Shown: positions 6,295 through 34,338 of the stretch, piece after piece
How positions within the stretch are numbered: the first letter of the stretch is position 1
Layout: each line of letters begins with the position of its first letter
Source of the DNA: Nocardiopsis sp. MG754419
GTDB lineage: Bacteria > Actinomycetota > Actinomycetes > Streptosporangiales > Streptosporangiaceae
Assembly (NCBI RefSeq): GCF_018207095.1
Contig: NZ_QOCZ01000024.1
Location: forward strand, 1-64,000
Length of the DNA: 64,000 nucleotides
Direction of reading: 5' to 3'
The notes under the pieces: generated by a model
The model's input: the letters and a program-made list of their open reading frames with translations, nothing else
Database searches by the model: none
What the model was told of the DNA's origin: nothing
Program-made: the position numbers and the translations under genes

Positions 6295-7749
6295 CTACAC
6301 GAGCGGGCGCTCGGTGGGCGGGATGGCGACCGGGAGGGTGGTGTCCTCGGTGAGGTAGCGGTCCACGCCGGCGGCGGCGGAGCGCCCCTCGGCGATGGCC
6401 CACACGATGAGGGACTGGCCACGACCCATGTCGCCCGCGCAGAAGACGCCGTCGACGGTGGTGCGGTAGTCGCTGTCGCGGACGACGTTGCCGCGACCGT
6501 CGAGCTCGACGCCGAGCTCCTCGATCATGCCCTTCTTCTCCGGGCCGACGAAGCCCATCGCGAGGGTGACGAGGTCGGCGGGGATCTCGCGTTCGGTGCC
6601 CTCGACGGGCTCGAAACCGTTGGCTCCGCGCTTGACCTCGACGAGTCGGAGGGCGCGGACGTTGCCGTCCTCGTCCCCGACGAACTCGACGGTGTTCACG
6701 GAGTAGATCCGCTTGCCGCCCTCCTCGTGGGCGCTGGTGACCTTGTACAGCATCGGCATGGTGGGCCAGGGCTGGTGGTCGGGCCGGTTCACCGGAGGCT
6801 TGGGCATGATCTCCAGCTGGGTCACCGAGGCGGCGCCCTGCCGGTGGGCGGTGCCGACGCAGTCGGCGCCGGTGTCGCCGCCGCCGATGACGACGACGTG
6901 CTTGCCCTCGGCGTGGATGGGGGCGCGTTCGAGGTCGCCCTCCTGCACCCGGTTGGCCAGGGGCAGGTACTCCATGGCCTGGTAGATGCCCTTGAGCTCG
7001 CGCCCGGTGGCGGGCAGGTCGCGCCACTGGGTGGCGCCACCGGTGAGGACCACGGCGTCGTGGTCGGCCTTGAGTCGGTCGACGGTGATGTCGACGCCGA
7101 CCTCGACACCGGTGCGGAAGGCGGTGCCCTCGGCGCTCATCTGGGCGAGGCGGCGGTCGATGTGCCGCTTCTCCATCTTGAACTCGGGGATGCCGTAGCG
7201 GAGCAGCCCGCCGACGCGGTCGGCGCGCTCGTAGACGGTGACGTCGTGTCCGGCGCGGGTGAGCTGCTGCGCGGCGGCCAGACCGGCGGGGCCGGAGCCG
7301 ACGACGGCGACCTTCTTGCCGGTGCGGTGGGTGGGGGGCAGGGGCTTGACCCAGCCTTCCTCCCACGCGCGGTCGATGATGGAGACCTCGACGTTCTTGA
7401 TGGTGACGGCGGGCTGGTTGATGCCGAGCACGCAGGCCGATTCACAGGGCGCCGGGCAGAGGCGTCCGGTGAACTCGGGGAAGTTGTTGGTGGCGTGGAG
7501 TCGCTCGATCGCCTCGGCCCAGTCGTGGGTGTAGACGAGGTTGTTCCACTCCGGAATGAGGTTGCCGAGAGGGCAGCCGTTGTGGCAGAAGGGGATGCCG
7601 CAGTCCATGCAGCGTGAGGCCTGCTTGGTGACGGCCCCCCGGTCGAAGTCCTCGTGGACCTCGCGCCAGTCCTGGATACGCACGTCGACCGGACGGTGGG
7701 TGGGGAGCTCGCGCTCGGTGATCTTCAGGAAACCCTTGGGGTCTGCCAT
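6295..7749 (-). CDS. gltD: Glutamate synthase small (beta) subunit
   Basis: 484 aa. Transfers electrons from NADPH through FAD and 4Fe-4S clusters to the large subunit for glutamine plus 2-oxoglutarate to glutamate synthesis. Seen: N-terminal Cys clusters [17 protein letters not shown] and [12 protein letters not shown], the FAD motif [14 protein letters not shown] near residue 147, the NADPH motif [13 protein letters not shown] near residue 287, and C-terminal [22 protein letters not shown]. It lies 27 nt after gltB on the same strand and ends at a 16-bp hairpin, so the two form one transcript. Confidence 0.97.
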
Positions 7750-7776
7750 GGTTCTTCCTCCTTTCGTGGAACGGCT

Positions 7777-12333
<4,557 letters not shown>

Positions 12334-12527
12334 CTGCCCTCCTGTCGTCTTCAGTCGGCTTCGTGAAAAGCGCATTCGGGACGACATTGGCCCTGCTGCG
12401 TACGTGATGCTGTTGTGTCCGCCCGGGGGCGGGTCCCGTCGGTCGGGCGCCCTGGGCCACCTACCGTGTCGCGTCCACGTCCTCGTGTCGCCGGTGGTGA
12501 TCGGGTCGCCCGCCATGGGCAGGTTCT

Positions 12528-12574: not shown

Positions 12575-12916
12575 GAGGACGCCGCGGTGCGCCCTCGGTC
12601 TCCTGCGCGCCCGGTGGGTGGAAGGTGACGCCTGTCCCTCTCGGATGCGCGTCGTCGTCCGATGAGAGCCGGCCTAGCCCGTTGTTCCACACGGGACCCC
12701 CGCTAAACCTCACCCGGGAGATCGAACACCGACCCATGGCCGGACGTTCACCCGGCTTCTCGAAGCGCGCGGGGGCGTGACCTCAGATTACCCCGGGGTT
12801 AACGCCACACCCAAGGGGGGAGGAACACCCCCGGGGAGTGATATCTCCCTCATCGGTGACGAACCACCCTGACCTGCGTCACCGTTGTGGTGCGCACGCC
12901 ATGGGAAGATCGTCGG

Positions 12917-14674
12917 ATGGCAGGAGACCCGACTTCCCCCGGCCCGGACCCCGGCGCCCCAAGCGACCCCGCACGTGTACCGGGTGTCCCGGTTCTGGAC
13001 ACCTCGGCCACGCTCCCCTCCGGTTCGGGCCCTCCCCTGCCCGAGAGCGCGGAGACGTTCCTGCACGAGTACGGAGTGGACGCGCCCCGCCCCCGCCTCA
13101 TCCTGTCGTTGCTCTCCGACGGACGGTGGTGGAGCGCCAACGACCTGGTCCGCGCCGGCGGTGTGGCCCACAGTGTGGTGCGCTCCCTGCTGGGGGCGCT
13201 GGACGAGTCCGGGGAGACGGACCGGGACGGTGACCGGTACCGGTTGCTGCGTCCGGGCCACTACCGGGGAGCGACGACGGCGATGCTCGCCGACCCCGTG
13301 GCCCATCTGCTCAACGACCACCCACGGGCCGCGGCGGAGCTGGTGCGGGCCGTCGCCGAGGGCCCGGCCTCCGACCTGGACCTGGACCACGTGGCCGCGA
13401 GCGCCGAGACGGCTCTGCGTCGCGCCCTGTTCCTGGCCACGCGGTTCGAACTGACCGGACGCACCCTGGTGTGCGTGGGCGACCACGACCTGACGTCGGT
13501 GGCGCTGTCCCTGGTCCTGCCGGGGGCCAGGGTCGAGGTCGTGGACCTGGACGAACGGGTCCTGGAGCACATCGACGCGGTGGCCGAACGTCTGGGCCTC
13601 ACGATCGGCACGCACAGCGCCGACCTGCGGTTGGGTCTGCCGCAGGCGTTGCGCGAGCGCGCGGACGTGGTGTTCACCGACCCTCCCTACACCCCGGACG
13701 GCGTGGAGCTGTTCGTCCGGCGTGGGGTGGAGGCCCTGGTCGACCCCCGCAAGGGCCGCGTGCTGGTCGCCTACGGTGCGAGCGAGACGACGCCGAAGCT
13801 GGCCGCCGCCGTCCAGACCCGCCTGGTGCGCCTGGGGCTGCTCATGGAGGCGGTGTGGCCGGACTTCAACCGTTACCTGGGTGCGGAGTCGATCGGCGCC
13901 GCCAGTGACCTGTACGTGCTCCGACCGCTGTCGAAGACGCTCCCCTTCCCCGACGGTGAGAGCGCCCGGGTGTACAGCCAGGGGGTCAACGCCAAGGAGG
14001 CGCGCGGGCGGTCGGACGCCGCGCGGGCCTTGGCGGTGTTGGAGCGCGTGGCGGAGGACCGCGGTGCGGAGGCGGAGGGCTCCCCTGCGTTGGTGGGCGA
14101 CTGGCCGCGCGAGGTGTGCAGGGAGGTCCGGGTGCGACTGTCCACCTGGATGTCCTCCCCCACCGCCGTGGGCACGTGCGCCGCGATCGACCTCACCGGC
14201 GGGTGGGACCGGATCGCTCCGCGGGTGGCGTTGGCCACGACCGCCGACAGCGCGTACATGCTCGTGCCGTCGGCCTCGTCGTGGGTGCGTGACGAGGTGG
14301 GCCAGAAGGCGTTCCGGTCGATGGTGGAACCGGGGATGCGGGTGCGTTTCCTGCGCGGGTTCGGTGCCTCGGACCTGACGGCGATCCGGTTGGAGCGCAA
14401 CGCCGAACCCGGTGGGAGCAGCGGCCGCCTGCTCGCCCACGTACAGGGCCGGGCGCACGGGACGCTCACCACCACGCTGCGGACCGGGCTCGTCGAGGTG
14501 GCGGCCTGGCGTGAGCAGGCGATCAACAAACGCACGGCCCGGCACGCGGTGGCGTCGGCGCCGGCGTGGCTGCCCGGGCACAGCCTGTTGGACCTGCCCG
14601 AACATCGGTTCTCGGCGCTGCGTGCGCTGACCTCGGAACTGCTGGCGCGCGCGGAGGAACTGCGGTCCGGCTGA
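12917..14674 (+). CDS. BpsA-like branched-polyamine aminopropyltransferase family protein
   Basis: 585 aa. An N-terminal winged-helix-like part (residues about 50-120) precedes a Rossmann methyltransferase-type core: VCVGDHDLTSVAL, VEVVDLDERVLEH and FTDPPYT match the GDxDLTS, DLDxR and DPPYT motifs of the N4-bis(aminopropyl)spermidine synthase family, which uses decarboxylated S-adenosylmethionine. A C-terminal half of about 240 residues is unlike archaeal BpsA and unrecognised. Whether it aminopropylates or methylates cannot be told. ATG 12917 has GGGAAGA 7 nt upstream. Stands alone, ending at a hairpin shared with the opposite strand. Confidence 0.65.
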   Translation: MAGDPTSPGPDPGAPSDPARVPGVPVLDTSATLPSGSGPPLPESAETFLHEYGVDAPRPRLILSLLSDGRWWSANDLVRAGGVAHSVVRSLLGALDESGETDRDGDRYRLLRPGHYRGATTAMLADPVAHLLNDHPRAAAELVRAVAEGPASDLDLDHVAASAETALRRALFLATRFELTGRTLVCVGDHDLTSVALSLVLPGARVEVVDLDERVLEHIDAVAERLGLTIGTHSADLRLGLPQALRERADVVFTDPPYTPDGVELFVRRGVEALVDPRKGRVLVAYGASETTPKLAAAVQTRLVRLGLLMEAVWPDFNRYLGAESIGAASDLYVLRPLSKTLPFPDGESARVYSQGVNAKEARGRSDAARALAVLERVAEDRGAEAEGSPALVGDWPREVCREVRVRLSTWMSSPTAVGTCAAIDLTGGWDRIAPRVALATTADSAYMLVPSASSWVRDEVGQKAFRSMVEPGMRVRFLRGFGASDLTAIRLERNAEPGGSSGRLLAHVQGRAHGTLTTTLRTGLVEVAAWREQAINKRTARHAVASAPAWLPGHSLLDLPEHRFSALRALTSELLARAEELRSG

Positions 14675-14703
14675 GGACGGCCCCGGGACACGACACGGCG
14701 GGC

Positions 14704-14728
14704 CCCACGGAGAGACGCTCTCCGTGGG
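14704..14728. terminator. Bidirectional hairpin between convergent genes
   Basis: An 11-bp perfect stem CCCACGGAGAG/CTCTCCGTGGG with a 3-nt loop lies 29 nt after the BpsA-like stop. On the other strand it lies 19 nt after the TGA at 14750-14748, which argues that this TGA was the natural end of the facing gene. Confidence 0.8.
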
Positions 14729-14747
14729 CGCCACCGGGACCTCCGCC

Positions 14748-15760
14748 TCACCGGGCAGACCGGCACCGGGGAGTTCCTCGGTGCCCGGCTCCGTGCCGGG
14801 TTCGGTTCCGGGGTCGGCGCCCGGTTCGCCGCCGAGTTCCTCGGTGCCCTCCGTGCCCTCGGAGCCGGTGTCCTCGGAGTCGTCCGCGTACTCGAGCATG
14901 CGGCGGAAGAGGGGGTCGCGGAAGTTGGCCAGGGCCACGAGCGGGGTGGAGAGGGTCACGCGTTCCTCGACCGAGTCGGAGTCGGTGGGCTGTACCCAGA
15001 GCACGACGAGGTAGTGGCCGCTGACGACGGCGTCGGCGGCGCTGTAGCCGGAGCCGAGTCGGTCGAAGGGCTCGGTGCCCGAAGGCGGTAGGAGGAAGCC
15101 CGGGTCGACGACCTCCTCGGCCTCCTGGCCCTCCTCGGGGGCGGGGAGTTCCATGGCCTGGGCGACCGCGCGGCTGCCCTCGATGTCGGCCAGGTTGAAC
15201 ACGGCGGCCACACCGAAGTAGTCGTCGGCGACGTAGGTGGCGCGGCCGGCCTGGGTGCACTCGGCGTCGGCCAGGGCCGCGGTGACCTCCTCGCCCCACA
15301 CCGCGGTGGAGCAGTCCTCGGTCAGGTCCGACTCCTCCAGGGTGAAGTCGATGCTCTGGCTGGAGATCTCGGCGTTGCGGCGCTCGAACAGCTCACCCTC
15401 GTTGAGGGGGCGGTCGTCGACCTCGCGGGAGGCCAGGACCTCGTTCATGTTGCCGGCGTCGCGGACCTTGTAGACGACCGGTCGGCTCTCCTGCGCGTCC
15501 GCGTCGCCCCCCTCGTCCCCCGTGAGCTGCACGAACAGGACCACGCCCAGCGCGATCAGCGCCACCACCAGAGTCCCCACGAGGATGGTCAGCATCCGAC
15601 CGGAGCGCCGGGGCTCCTTCTTGCGTCGGCCGCCACCGCCACCGCCACCGCGTCGGCGTGTGCTCGCCCTGGAGGGGGTCTGTGTCTGCTGTTCGTCGGG
15701 CTCGCTGTTTTTCCTTCGGCGGCCCGGCCTGCCGGGCGTCGAGGGTTCAGAAGGGGACAC
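14748..15760 (-). CDS. Membrane-anchored extracytoplasmic protein; probable frameshift near its 3' end
   Basis: Begins at GTG 15760, with GGAAAGG 8 nt upstream. Layout: Arg/Lys-rich cytoplasmic N-terminus with a Gly run (residues 1-52), one membrane helix (MLTILVGTLVVALIALGVVL), then an outside domain with paired Cys (EDCSTAVWGEE, DAECTQAG) and GHYLVVLWVQP, then a Pro-Gly-Thr-Glu tail. It is a paralogue of the next gene. Oddity: the frame has no stop until 12788, running through the shared terminator and antisense to the whole BpsA-like gene. The coordinate 14748 is the TGA in the neighbouring frame just before the hairpin, so a 1-nt loss in the repetitive PGTE tail is likely. Function unknown. 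Confidence 0.55.
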
Positions 15761-15963: not shown

Positions 15964-17151
15964 TCACTCCCCCTCGTCGCCCCGGTGGGCGACGACCTCG
16001 TCGTAGACGAAGCCGAAGGCGCTCATGGAGGCCACGTCCAGGGTGGCCAGGTCCGAGTCCTCACCGGGCGAGGAGCCGTCGGCCGCGGCCGACCAGAACA
16101 CGGCCAGGTAGTGACCCATGACCTGGGTACTGGCCTGGCTGTACCCGTCCTGCAGTCCCTCGACGTCGCCACCGGTCCGGCTCAGCAGGAAGCCGAGGTC
16201 GGTCTCGGCGTTGGTCGGGTCCAGGGCTCCGGCCACGTCGGTGGCGGCGTCGCTGTCGGACAGGTCGAACAGGGTGACCTGCGCGACGTGGTCCCCACCG
16301 CCGTCGGTGTACACACCGGAGGCAGCTCCGGTGCAGTCGGCGTCGATCAGGCTCTGTCCGAGTCCGTCGCCCCACACCAGCGAGGTGCAGGAGTCGGTGA
16401 TCTCGGAGTCGCGCAGCTCCAACTGCATGTCGCCCAGTTCGAGCTCCTCGACCGACCCGAAGACGGCCTCCTCCGTCATGGGTTCGGCATCGGCGGGTCG
16501 AGCGTCGATGGGCCCGAACACCTCGGGATCGTTCGCCTGGAAACGGTACTGCTCGGGTGTGAGCGTGCTGTGGCCGTCGGGCGGCGCCACGATGGAGTCC
16601 TCACCACCGCCGGAACCGCCTCCCCCGGAGAGGAGCTGGAAGGACAGCATTCCCAGGAGTGCCACGAGGGCGATACTGAAGGCGCCCAGGAGCACGCCCA
16701 GAACGGCGGTGCCGCGCTTGCGTTTGCTCTGTTCGGCGAGGGTGTACACGATCTGGTTGGGCCGGTCCCCCAGGACGGACACCTTCTTGATCGCGGACGC
16801 GGAGAACGCGGAGACACGGCCTACACCGCGCTTGTCCTTGCCCTTGCGTCGCCCGCCCCTGCGTGCGCCCGTGGACTCGGCGTTCGGGGCGTCGTCGTCC
16901 CGGTCGTCGTGGTCGTCGCCGTCGTACCCGTACTCGTCGTAGGAGTCGTGGTCGTCGTACTGGTCGGCGCCGGACCGGGTGTGGTGGTGTCCGTACTCGT
17001 CGGAGAAATCCTCCTCCGGGTCGTAACCCTGCTCGAACTCCTCGTCCTCACGACCGTAGTCGTCGACGTGGTCCCCGGTCTGGGTGCCGCCGGCGCGGCG
17101 GGAGCCGCCGCGCCGCTTCTTGCGTCCGAAACCGGACTCGGCTCTGCTCAC
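15964..17151 (-). CDS. Membrane-anchored extracytoplasmic protein (paralogue)
   Basis: About 395 aa. Acidic, Tyr/Asp/His-rich cytoplasmic stretch (EDEEFEQGYDPEEDF, HDSYDEYGYDGDDH), a basic segment, one membrane helix near residues 170-190 (TAVLGVLLGAFSIALVALLG), then an outside domain. DSCTSLVWGDGLGQ, DADCTGAASG and GHYLAVFWS align with EDCSTAVWGEE, DAECTQAG and GHYLVVLWV in the preceding paralogue, so both share a fold with two conserved Cys. Start is GTG 17151 (weak GAGAAAG) or TTG 17163. Function unknown; its position beside lgt and dsbA-like genes suggests an envelope role, as inference only. Confidence 0.65.
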   Translation of the reverse strand: MSRAESGFGRKKRRGGSRRAGGTQTGDHVDDYGREDEEFEQGYDPEEDFSDEYGHHHTRSGADQYDDHDSYDEYGYDGDDHDDRDDDAPNAESTGARRGGRRKGKDKRGVGRVSAFSASAIKKVSVLGDRPNQIVYTLAEQSKRKRGTAVLGVLLGAFSIALVALLGMLSFQLLSGGGGSGGGEDSIVAPPDGHSTLTPEQYRFQANDPEVFGPIDARPADAEPMTEEAVFGSVEELELGDMQLELRDSEITDSCTSLVWGDGLGQSLIDADCTGAASGVYTDGGGDHVAQVTLFDLSDSDAATDVAGALDPTNAETDLGFLLSRTGGDVEGLQDGYSQASTQVMGHYLAVFWSAAADGSSPGEDSDLATLDVASMSAFGFVYDEVVAHRGDEGE

Positions 17152-17253
17152 GGTCTTTCTCAATCGTCAACCCGTGGTCTGCTCGACTGGTGCGGGATAG
17201 GCCCGCGGCGCCGTCGGCCACGGGCCGACGCGCCGGAACTCGGCTTCCCCGCG

Positions 17254-18369
17254 CTACTCGGGCCTCGACCCGGAGTCGTCTCCCGCGCCTTTGGCGTCGT
17301 CCTCCGTCGGGCCCTCGCTACTAGATCGCTCAGGGCTCGGGTGGTATTCCGTTCCGGCTTCGTCGCTCACGTCACTGCCCTGGTCGAACACCGAGTCGTC
17401 GGTGTCGACGGCGCTGTAGACGGTGCCCTCCTCCTCGGTCTTGGCCCCGGTGGGCCCGAAGACCTGGGTTCCGGCGTCGTGGCCGTGCGGCAGGACGGCG
17501 GTGGAGAAGCGGTCGAGACGGCGTCCGGCCCACACGAAGTAGGCCAGGGCACCGGCGAACACGGCGATGGAGGTCCAGTTGTTCAGGCGCAGGCCGAAGA
17601 AGTCGTTGGCGGGGTCCACGCGCAGGTACTCGATCCAGAAACGGCCCACGCAGTAACCCATGACGTACAGGGCGAAGAGACGACCGCCCTGGAGCGAGCC
17701 CTCGAAGCGACGGCCCAGGTAGGCCAGCAGGATGGCCAGGCCCAGGCACCACAGGGATTCGTAGAGGAAGGTGGGGTGGTAGGTGGTCACGCCGGGCTCC
17801 ATGCCGGCGCGCAGGTACCCCTCGGGGGTGAGGTTGATCTCCACGGCCCAGGGCAGGTCGGTGGGGCGACCGAAGAGCTCCTGGTTGAAGTAGTTGCCCC
17901 AGCGGCCGATGGCCTGGGCGAGGGGGATGGTGGGGGCGATGGCGAAGGCGAGCTTGGACATCGAGAGCCCGCGCTTGCGGGCGACCAGCCACACACCGAC
18001 GGCGCCGAGCGGGATGGCGCCCCAGATCCCGAGACCGCCCTCCCAGATGAACAGGGCCCGGATGGGTTCCTTGCCGGGGCCGAAGTACAGCTGCGCGTCG
18101 CTGATGACGTGGTAGAGACGCCCGCCGACGAGACCGAGGATGACGGCCCAGACGGCCATGTCCATGATGGTGCCCGGCTCACCGCCCATGGCCTTCCACC
18201 GGCGCTCGCTCCAGTACACGGCGGCGATGACACCGGCGAGAATGCACAGCGCGTAGAAGTGGATCTCCAGGGGCCCGATCGGGATCGAGTTGACCTGGGG
18301 GCTGGGAATGGCCGCGAGGGCGCGGCCGTACTCGGCCGCGCCCTCGGAAGCTGTCGACGACAATGTCAC
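17254..18369 (-). CDS. lgt: Prolipoprotein diacylglyceryl transferase
   Basis: 371 aa integral membrane enzyme that adds diacylglycerol from phosphatidylglycerol to the lipobox Cys of prelipoproteins. Seen: about seven membrane segments, GRWGNYFNQELFGRPTDLPW (Lgt signature), TYHPTFLYESLW and GRFWIEYLRVD. An acidic cytoplasmic tail of about 80 residues follows the last helix, as often in actinobacteria. The start is GTG 18369 (VTLSSTASEG), not the longer frame into the dsbA-like gene; weak upstream GAGAG. It follows the DsbA-like gene by 49 nt and is probably cotranscribed. Confidence 0.95.
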   Translation of the reverse strand: MTLSSTASEGAAEYGRALAAIPSPQVNSIPIGPLEIHFYALCILAGVIAAVYWSERRWKAMGGEPGTIMDMAVWAVILGLVGGRLYHVISDAQLYFGPGKEPIRALFIWEGGLGIWGAIPLGAVGVWLVARKRGLSMSKLAFAIAPTIPLAQAIGRWGNYFNQELFGRPTDLPWAVEINLTPEGYLRAGMEPGVTTYHPTFLYESLWCLGLAILLAYLGRRFEGSLQGGRLFALYVMGYCVGRFWIEYLRVDPANDFFGLRLNNWTSIAVFAGALAYFVWAGRRLDRFSTAVLPHGHDAGTQVFGPTGAKTEEEGTVYSAVDTDDSVFDQGSDVSDEAGTEYHPSPERSSSEGPTEDDAKGAGDDSGSRPE

Positions 18370-18418
18370 TTCTCTGCTCTCGGGTCCGCCCCGCGTGCGG
18401 GGAGTCTCTTCAGGGGTT

Positions 18419-19396
18419 CTACTCCGCTTCACCCCCGTCGCCCATCGGCTCGGTGTCGACATCGCCCTCGCCGGCGGAGGCGATGGCCTCCGAGAGTCCG
18501 CGTGTGGTCATGGCCGCGTTGTTGTCGAGCAACTCGCCATTGATGTAGACGGCGGGTGTTCCGCGGAACATGTTGTCTCCGCTGTAGCGAGTGTAAGCCG
18601 TTCCCGTGGCGTCGATGATCTCGCCGGTGTAGGTCCCGTCGAGGAACGCGGGGTCGTGTCCGTTGGCCGCCCCCCAGCTGAGCAGATCGGTCAGGACCAT
18701 GGTCCCGAGCGTCTCCTCGCCGATCTCCTCGGTGGCGTCGGCGGTCAGCGCGGGCAGGAACTCCTCGGTGAACCGGGTGACGACCTCGGCCTCGGCGTCG
18801 AGCCGTTCGTCGAACTCGTCGGCGGCGGTGCCGTCGGCGTCGGTCTGGCGGAACCACTCCTTGAGTTCCTCGACGCTGAAGCCCTCACGGCCCTCGGTGG
18901 GCTGGTTCTCGAAGAGCAGGTCGTTGTACTCGACGAAGACGTCGTGGTCGGCGGCGGCCCGGGCGGCGGCGCCGGCGCGCAACGAGTTGCTGCTGATGGG
19001 CACCTCCTGCTGGGCGAAGATGCTCACCGGCCGGTAGTGGACGATGGCCTCACCGGAGGCGGCGCGTTCCTTGAGGAGGTCGCCGTTGAGGAGTTCGAAC
19101 TGGCGGCAGGCGGGGCACTGGTAGTCGGCGTAGACCTCGACGACGGGGGCGTTCACGCCCTCGTCGGCCATGACCACGCTGCCGCCCTCCTGGAGGGTCT
19201 GCGTGGCGAGGGGCCCCTCGTAGCCGTCGCCCTGGCCGGAGGTGAGGACGGCGTAGCCGATCCCGACGACCAGTAGGACCACGGCGGCGGCGATGCCGAC
19301 GACGAGGAGGGTCTTCTTCCGCTGGGCGGCCCGCTTCTCCTTCTCCCGCTGTTCCCTGAGCTTCTCACGGGAGCGCTTGCGCGCTTCACTCCCCAT
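18419..19396 (-). CDS. Membrane-anchored DsbA-family thiol-disulfide oxidoreductase
   Basis: 325 aa. A strongly charged cytoplasmic N-terminus (Arg/Lys/Glu heptads, residues 1-28) and one membrane helix (TLLVVGIAAAVVLLVVGIGY) anchor a thioredoxin-fold domain outside the cell. YADYQCPACRQFE gives the CxxC active site (CPAC), and GTPAVYINGELL the cis-Pro loop (TPAVYING). It would form or isomerise disulfides in exported proteins, such as the Cys-paired paralogues two genes away. SD-like GGGGAAA precedes ATG 19396. It follows the MauE-like gene by 57 nt; the pair is a plausible redox couple. Confidence 0.88.
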   Translation of the reverse strand: MGSEARKRSREKLREQREKEKRAAQRKKTLLVVGIAAAVVLLVVGIGYAVLTSGQGDGYEGPLATQTLQEGGSVVMADEGVNAPVVEVYADYQCPACRQFELLNGDLLKERAASGEAIVHYRPVSIFAQQEVPISSNSLRAGAAARAAADHDVFVEYNDLLFENQPTEGREGFSVEELKEWFRQTDADGTAADEFDERLDAEAEVVTRFTEEFLPALTADATEEIGEETLGTMVLTDLLSWGAANGHDPAFLDGTYTGEIIDATGTAYTRYSGDNMFRGTPAVYINGELLDNNAAMTTRGLSEAIASAGEGDVDTEPMGDGGEAE

Positions 19397-32809: not shown

Positions 32810-33583
32810 CTAACGCACCGCGTGGCCCGCCTCGCGCAGGCTCCGCTTCACGTCGGCGATGGTGAACTCCCCGAAGTGGAACACGGTCGCGGCCAGCACC
32901 GCGTCGGCGCCCGCCGCGACGGCCGGGGCGAAGTGCTCCACCGCGCCCGCGCCGCCCGAGGCGACCAACGGCACGTCCACGCGAGCGCGTACCGCCCGGA
33001 TCAGCTCCAGGTCGAAGCCGGCCTTGGTGCCGTCGGCGTCCATGGAGTTGAGCAGGATCTCCCCCGCTCCCAGGTCGGCGGCGCGCTCGCACCACTCCAG
33101 GGCGTCGATCCCGGTGCCCTTGCGCCCACCGTGGGTGGTGACCTCGAACCCGCTGGGGGTGGGCGCGTCACCGTCGCGGACCCGGCGAACGTCGGCGGAG
33201 AGCACCAACACCTGACGGCCGAACCGTTCGGCGATCTCCTCGATGAGCGCGGGCCGGGCGATCGCCGCGGTGTTGACGCCGACCTTGTCGGCACCGGCGC
33301 GCAGCAGGCGGTCCACGTCCTCGGTGGTGCGGACCCCACCCCCGACCGTCAGCGGGATGAACACCTGGTCGGCGGTGCGTCGCACCACGTCATAGGTGGT
33401 CTCGCGGTCACCGCTGGAGGCGGTCACGTCCAGGAAGGTGAGCTCGTCGGCGCCACCGCCGTCGTAGGTGCCCGCCAACTCCACGGGGTCACCGGCGTCC
33501 CGCAGGTTCTCGAAGTTGACGCCCTTGACCACCCGACCGGCGTCCACGTCCAGGCAGGGGATGACACGCACGGCCAGGCTCAC
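32810..33583 (-). CDS. hisF: Imidazole glycerol phosphate synthase cyclase subunit
   Basis: 257 aa TIM barrel. Uses ammonia from HisH to turn PRFAR into IGP and AICAR. Seen: [19 protein letters not shown] with the catalytic Asp, [39 protein letters not shown] (second Asp) and [14 protein letters not shown] 33583 overlaps the priA stop by 4 nt. Last gene of the operon. Confidence 0.97.
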
Positions 33584-34338
33584 CGGCGCTCACCCTTGAC
33601 CAGGGCCAGGGCGTCCTCCAGGGTGAAGGCGCCCTCGTACAGGGCGGTGCCCATGATGGCGCCCTCGACACCCTCGGGGACCAGGGTGGCGATGGCCTCC
33701 AGGTCGGCCAGGCTCGACACCCCGCCGCTGGCCACCACGGGCTTGTCGGTGCGTTCGCACACGGTGCGGAGCAGGTCCAGGTTGGGGCCCTTGAGGGTGC
33801 CGTCCTTGTTGACGTCGGTGACGACGTAGCGGGCGCAGCCCTCCGACTCCAGGCGCTCCAGGGTCGCGAGGAGGTCACCACCGTCTCGGGTCCAGCCCCG
33901 GGCGGCCAGGGTGGTGCCGCGCACGTCCAGCCCGATGGCGATCCGGTCGCCGTGCTCGGCGATGATCTTGGCGCACCACTCGGGGTTCTCCAGCGCTGCG
34001 GTGCCGATGTTCACCCGGGTGCAACCGGTGGAGAGCGCGGCGGCCAGCGACGCGTCGTCACGGATCCCGCCGGACATCTCGACCTTGATGTCGAGCCGGC
34101 CGACGATGTCGCCCAGCAGTTCGCGGTTGTGGCCGCGCCCGAAGGCGGCGTCCAGGTCCACCAGGTGGATCCACTCGGCGCCGGCGTTCTGCCATGCGGT
34201 GGCGGCCTCGAAGGGGTCGCCGTACTGGCCGCCGGAGCCCGCCTTGCCCTGGACCAGTTGGACGGCCTGGCCGCCCGCGACGTCCACGGCGGGCAGCAGT
34301 TCGAGTGCGGGGGTCGACGTGGTGTGCTCGCCGGTCAT
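33580..34338 (-). CDS. priA: PriA, bifunctional HisA/TrpF-type isomerase
   Basis: 252 aa TIM barrel. In actinobacteria this enzyme isomerises both ProFAR (His) and PRA (Trp), replacing TrpF, and no trpF is seen here. Seen: [47 protein letters not shown] (Trp conserved in PriA), [10 protein letters not shown] with catalytic Asp. Oddity: the Arg of the family motif AVRLVxG (Arg19 in the Mycobacterium enzyme) is Gln here, codon CAA, one base from CGA. ATG 34338 follows GAGAAGG. Confidence 0.93.

Follow-up and report, generated by a model that had tools for sequence, protein, structure and literature searches.

A missing stop codon beside a terminator-like hairpin leaves a Nocardiopsis membrane protein gene open for 990 codons, possibly through a small deletion between short repeats

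In the 64,000 nucleotides of DNA analysed here from the soil bacterium Nocardiopsis sp. MG754419 (contig NZ_QOCZ01000024.1, positions 1 to 64,000; hereafter the window), a gene for a membrane-anchored protein (14720-15760, minus strand; 347 codons up to the point at which its relatives end) lacks a stop codon. As the first-pass annotation had stated, its frame runs from GTG 15760 without any in-frame stop in the ORF listing and ends only at 12788, i.e., after 990 codons. Judging from alignments with related genomes, the lesion appears to be a gap of approximately 35-45 nt that falls on the stop codon, with a short direct repeat at its edges. It seems to represent either a deletion or a mis-join in a draft assembly of 474 contigs. 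The reading that we favour, with a probability of roughly 0.55, is that this DNA was deleted between the short repeats in the organism.

The protein comprises a basic N-terminus, one likely transmembrane helix (approx. residues 53-81, suggested by a hydrophobic run in the sequence and by a low-confidence structure model), an outer domain and a PGTE-rich tail. The model of the 347-aa protein as a whole is too poor for use (mean pLDDT 39, four sequences in the alignment). Residues 1-299 match no Pfam family, the match to NCBIfam SCO2400_fam lies far below the cut-off (18.9 of 55 bits), and one scan of viral_contigs gave no relative of the protein. Matches to it are found in all 40 genomes of the Nocardiopsis set compared, its own included. 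The named relatives from the protein search (Nocardiopsis sp. JB363, N. listeri, and N. alkaliphila) appear below as genomes G036, G017, and G005 and are not independent of them. Three related proteins (L003, L004, and L005) are 78-80% identical to the 347-codon protein and co-linear with it over the full length, and in a four-way alignment the window remains in register with them through the last residue: the C-terminus GLPGEAEVPVAPTE is aligned with GLPGEEEIPVPPAE, GLPGEAEVPAVPGQ, and GLPGE-EGTALPGE, at which the three relatives stop. Furthermore, in 38 of 38 relatives (L006-L043, one per genome, with G020 left out), an in-frame stop occurs 23-75 codons past the equivalent of residue 292; the 347 codons of the window would correspond to 55.

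These alignments bear directly on the explanation offered by the first-pass annotation, namely, that a single nucleotide was lost in the PGTE-coding tail (about 14762-14860) and that the true stop is a TGA (14750-14748, minus strand) in the adjacent frame. Such a TGA is indeed present in that frame and, as had been noticed, lies 19 nt ahead of the hairpin, the 11-bp core of which occupies 14728-14704. However, it consists of out-of-frame bases of GGT GAG (GG[TGA]G), the codons of Gly337-Glu338, and is not a lost stop. Because these two residues are invariant in the four-way alignment and the matching sequence continues past the TGA, in the current frame and not in the adjacent one, a 1-nt frameshift in the tail is ruled out by the alignment, and we give this reading practically no credence. 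The annotation was therefore right that a stop is missing beside the hairpin but wrong about which one. Among the outcomes that it had allowed for, the likely ones are an indel or an error of assembly, whereas a long antisense extension finds no parallel: the comparison of C-termini that it had proposed revealed the long frame in none of the 38 relatives, all of which stop at the end of the tail.

In the relatives, the last codon is followed by the stop, a spacer and the hairpin, in that order. In the window, neither stop nor spacer is present, and the hairpin is also missing its outer 5' arm. At the site of the lost stop (14717-14719, minus strand), the alignments show TAG or TGA in close relatives but AGC (Ser) in the window, and this codon already lies inside the hairpin. 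Pairwise DNA alignments place a single long gap at the stop; it measures 45 nt in the comparisons with G018 and G017 and 35 nt in that with G036, and shorter gaps occur at other places in the tail. For G005 and G002, the gap is not cleanly placed. The gene ends with CCCGCGGAG-TAG in both G018 and G036, and CCCACGGAG is found in the 5' arm of their hairpins. The two copies, 36 and 26 nt apart, respectively, are identical at 8 of 9 nt. The window has a single CCCACGGAG (14720-14728, minus strand), which serves both as the 5' hairpin arm and as the final three codons (Pro-Thr-Glu). Thus, the comparison with these two genomes reveals near-identical repeats flanking the missing DNA and one remaining copy, and deletion of 45 or 35 nt between the repeats would convert their layout into that of the window. 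The gene end in G017 (CCCGGGCAG) gives a weaker repeat, and no direct repeat is seen in G002 or G005.

In slipped mispairing between short direct repeats, the intervening DNA is lost together with one repeat copy, and a single copy is left at the junction. The window junction, with its one remaining copy, does not differ in kind from such events; what goes beyond the usual repeat deletion is the consequence, i.e., a stop lost beside a terminator. We infer that the last three codons of the gene formed one copy of a 9-nt imperfect repeat, whose second copy was part of the 5' arm of a terminator shared with the convergent neighbour. A deletion between the two copies would have taken out the native stop and spacer together with the outer 5' arm, joining the end of the coding sequence directly to the hairpin, and the rest of the 990-aa frame would be open by accident.

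The convergent terminator-like hairpin itself (14696-14736) has a predicted folding energy of -35.2 kcal/mol (z -5.66). It consists of the 11-bp core (14704-14728) and six outer pairs involving the coding bases CGGTGG, has no U-run and is absent from the list produced by a terminator scan based on T-runs. The core is 17-21 bp long in G018, G017, and G036 vs. 11 bp in the window, in which CGGTGG now pairs with what remains of the outer 3' arm, so that the fold is still strong. A strong hairpin (score of 11 or more) is present in 27 of the 38 relatives and in every one of the 27 begins 4-60 nt past the stop. The best hairpins of the other 11 are weaker, and two of them (in L035 and L043) begin ahead of the stop. 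The 3' arm in the window contains one more G than in G018, G017, and G036, which could hint at locally poor sequence.

This extra G, in the same arm, is among the observations that fit the main competing explanation, in which two ends were wrongly joined in the draft assembly over the short repeat, at a GC-rich hairpin, and a stop and spacer are present in the actual genome. We consider this a serious contender, at somewhat below even odds. The draft is fragmented into 474 contigs, the gap coincides precisely with a strong hairpin and has a short overlap, and the lost-stop state occurs in none of the 38 relatives. However, 9 nt is little overlap for an assembler to act on, and four other hairpins with stems of 14-22 bp are present among the nine convergent gaps examined in the window. 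Moreover, a search of the genome for a second, uncollapsed copy of the region found none, and the exact longer-arm form GGGCCCACGGAGAG, the one form searched, is absent; a looser search returned 17 one-mismatch and no exact matches (control, 28). Gene ends elsewhere also mostly agree with those in relatives. When the window and approx. 360 kb more of the same genome (G000) were compared with stretches of G017 and G002 matched to contigs C147, C2, C114, and C358, ORF ends fell within 12 aa of expectation in 141 of 148 and 144 of 150 cases, respectively, and the 990-aa frame (+643 aa) was the only extension longer than 100 aa. Other extensions exceeding 20 aa were +30, +52, and +86 with G017 queries and +41 and +87 with G002 queries, and one ORF was 32 aa short. 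In the reverse tests, 152 of 157 (G017) and 154 of 161 (G002) ends were as expected. The extensions found there (159 and 220 aa in G017; 107 and 253 aa in G002; query ORFs of 81-197 aa) and one G002 ORF that is 859 aa short are, on overall judgement, probably spurious or poorly matched ORFs. It should be noted that ORFs with less than 60% identity, or with ends that differed between the two relatives, were excluded and that the composition filter was leaky, passing many antisense ORFs (rows with internal stops); the test is thus weak evidence against a systematic assembly fault.

Whichever of the two accounts of the lesion is correct, the length of the frame calls for little explanation. The extension (12788-14719, minus strand) runs into the convergent neighbour, a BpsA-like gene (12887-14674, plus strand; Pfam BpsA_C, PF01861, residues 156-336, E 4.4e-35) that occupies the same position in the six relatives compared. 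Beyond 14674, the frame is in exact antisense codon register with this gene and can be stopped only by TTA, CTA, or TCA codons within it; as none occurs among its 596 codons, the last 1.9 kb is open. Genes free of these codons are common in the window (22 of 35, with boundaries set by hand and including 32813-33760, whose mis-set start takes in an in-frame stop). At the rate observed in the window (15 in 14,322 codons), the probability of finding none in 595 codons is 0.54. By contrast with this register, just two and one of the 35 genes are open throughout in the other two antisense phases, and falling into the open phase would itself be approximately a one-in-three chance. Among 12 nearly complete orthologues of the BpsA-like gene (two partial ones excluded), three lack TTA, CTA, and TCA and nine have 1-4 of them. 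The openness of the 990-codon frame is therefore not beyond chance, and it is the missing stop, rather than the length of the extension, that is exceptional. These findings also weigh on the idea that the window encodes a genuine 990-aa fusion or a long overlapping antisense gene. An open frame of 990 codons is what such a protein would require, but its openness is expected, it is shared by none of the 38 relatives, a strong hairpin lies in between, and the extension (12791-14746) matches no Pfam family. No support for a conserved long protein was found in this analysis, and we regard a long fusion protein as effectively ruled out, with only a marginally better standing than the frameshift.

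Should the deletion be genuine, any transcript that ends at the hairpin (approx. 14696) would lack a stop codon, and ribosomes would run to its 3' end, approximately eight codons past the old end of the gene. Bacteria free ribosomes on stop-less mRNAs by tmRNA-SmpB (PMC6881298, PMC8012679), and genes for tmRNA (tag ANSKRTEFALAA) and SmpB are present in the genome. Such transcripts should thus be tmRNA-SmpB substrates, and the protein would be tagged upon rescue, whereas read-through transcripts could yield products of up to 990 aa. The lack of a U-run is not by itself an argument against termination at this site, since a class of transcript ends with U-run-less hairpins is described for Streptomyces clavuligerus and is compared there with I-shaped terminators and also with Rho-dependent ends (PMC8269248). 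Like the I-shaped (U-tract-less) terminators of GC-rich bacteria, the window has a strong GC hairpin without a U-run after the gene end. Unlike them, its putative terminator uses the last codons of the gene as the 5' arm, with no stop ahead.

Genes naturally read from nonstop mRNAs are known: arfA in E. coli and brfA in B. subtilis (PMC6881298, PMC8012679). As described in these papers, termination (brfA), or termination or RNase III cleavage at a stem-loop (arfA), shortens the message, which lacks a stop because the hairpin lies inside the frame, upstream of any in-frame stop. The window is similar in that its hairpin (14736-14696) is inside the frame and the next in-frame stop is at 12788, provided that termination occurs at this hairpin. 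However, arfA and brfA encode rescue factors of 71-72 codons that are regulated by this arrangement, whereas here it is found in one genome only and in a gene for a 347-codon membrane protein. Taking the sharing of the arrangement among orthologues as our own criterion, the two cases also differ: all 38 orthologues stop at the end of the tail, with the strong hairpin after the stop in 27 of 27. The window protein, a membrane-anchored protein of 347 aa with no Pfam family for residues 1-299, is not a ribosome-rescue factor. It is doubtful, although conceivable, that the deletion is both real and fixed in the species, such that the protein is made only from nonstop mRNAs and tmRNA tagging determines both its level and its C-terminus. 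In that event, the last codons of the gene would double as the 5' arm of the terminator, and a gene other than that of a rescue factor would be a newly born analogue of arfA and brfA.

A real lesion would offer a natural experiment on the loss of a chromosomal stop codon directly ahead of a terminator and on the origin of new nonstop-mRNA genes. Should the lesion instead prove an assembly error, it would be a reminder to check draft genomes wherever a gene ends beside a strong hairpin. In either case, one small lesion in GC-rich DNA can produce a very long "overlapping antisense gene", which can mislead automatic annotation. The window contains a further very long antisense frame, longer than the 990-aa one: it covers 1570 aa (7654-12366, plus strand) opposite 7777-12516, antisense to a conserved gene of 1518 codons (7777-12333), and is probably not a gene.

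Several further observations concern the protein family. The P/G/T/E-rich part past residue 292 ranges from 23 to 75 codons across the 38 relatives, whereas the preceding part aligns well, and it appears from the sequences to be a fast-evolving repeat tail. The orthologue in G009 (L042) is distributed over more than one frame, and that in G029 (L043) has a small, separate N-terminal piece; these are perhaps sequencing errors of those genomes. In G020, only a short N-terminal part of the orthologue is present, at the end of a contig, and the stronger match in that genome is a paralogue. In the window, a paralogue (15964-17163, minus strand), likewise without a Pfam family, is located directly upstream of the gene and adjoins lgt (17254-18462); it is 34% identical over residues 50-277. 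A second, weaker match lies near the first one in all 40 genomes of the genus set.
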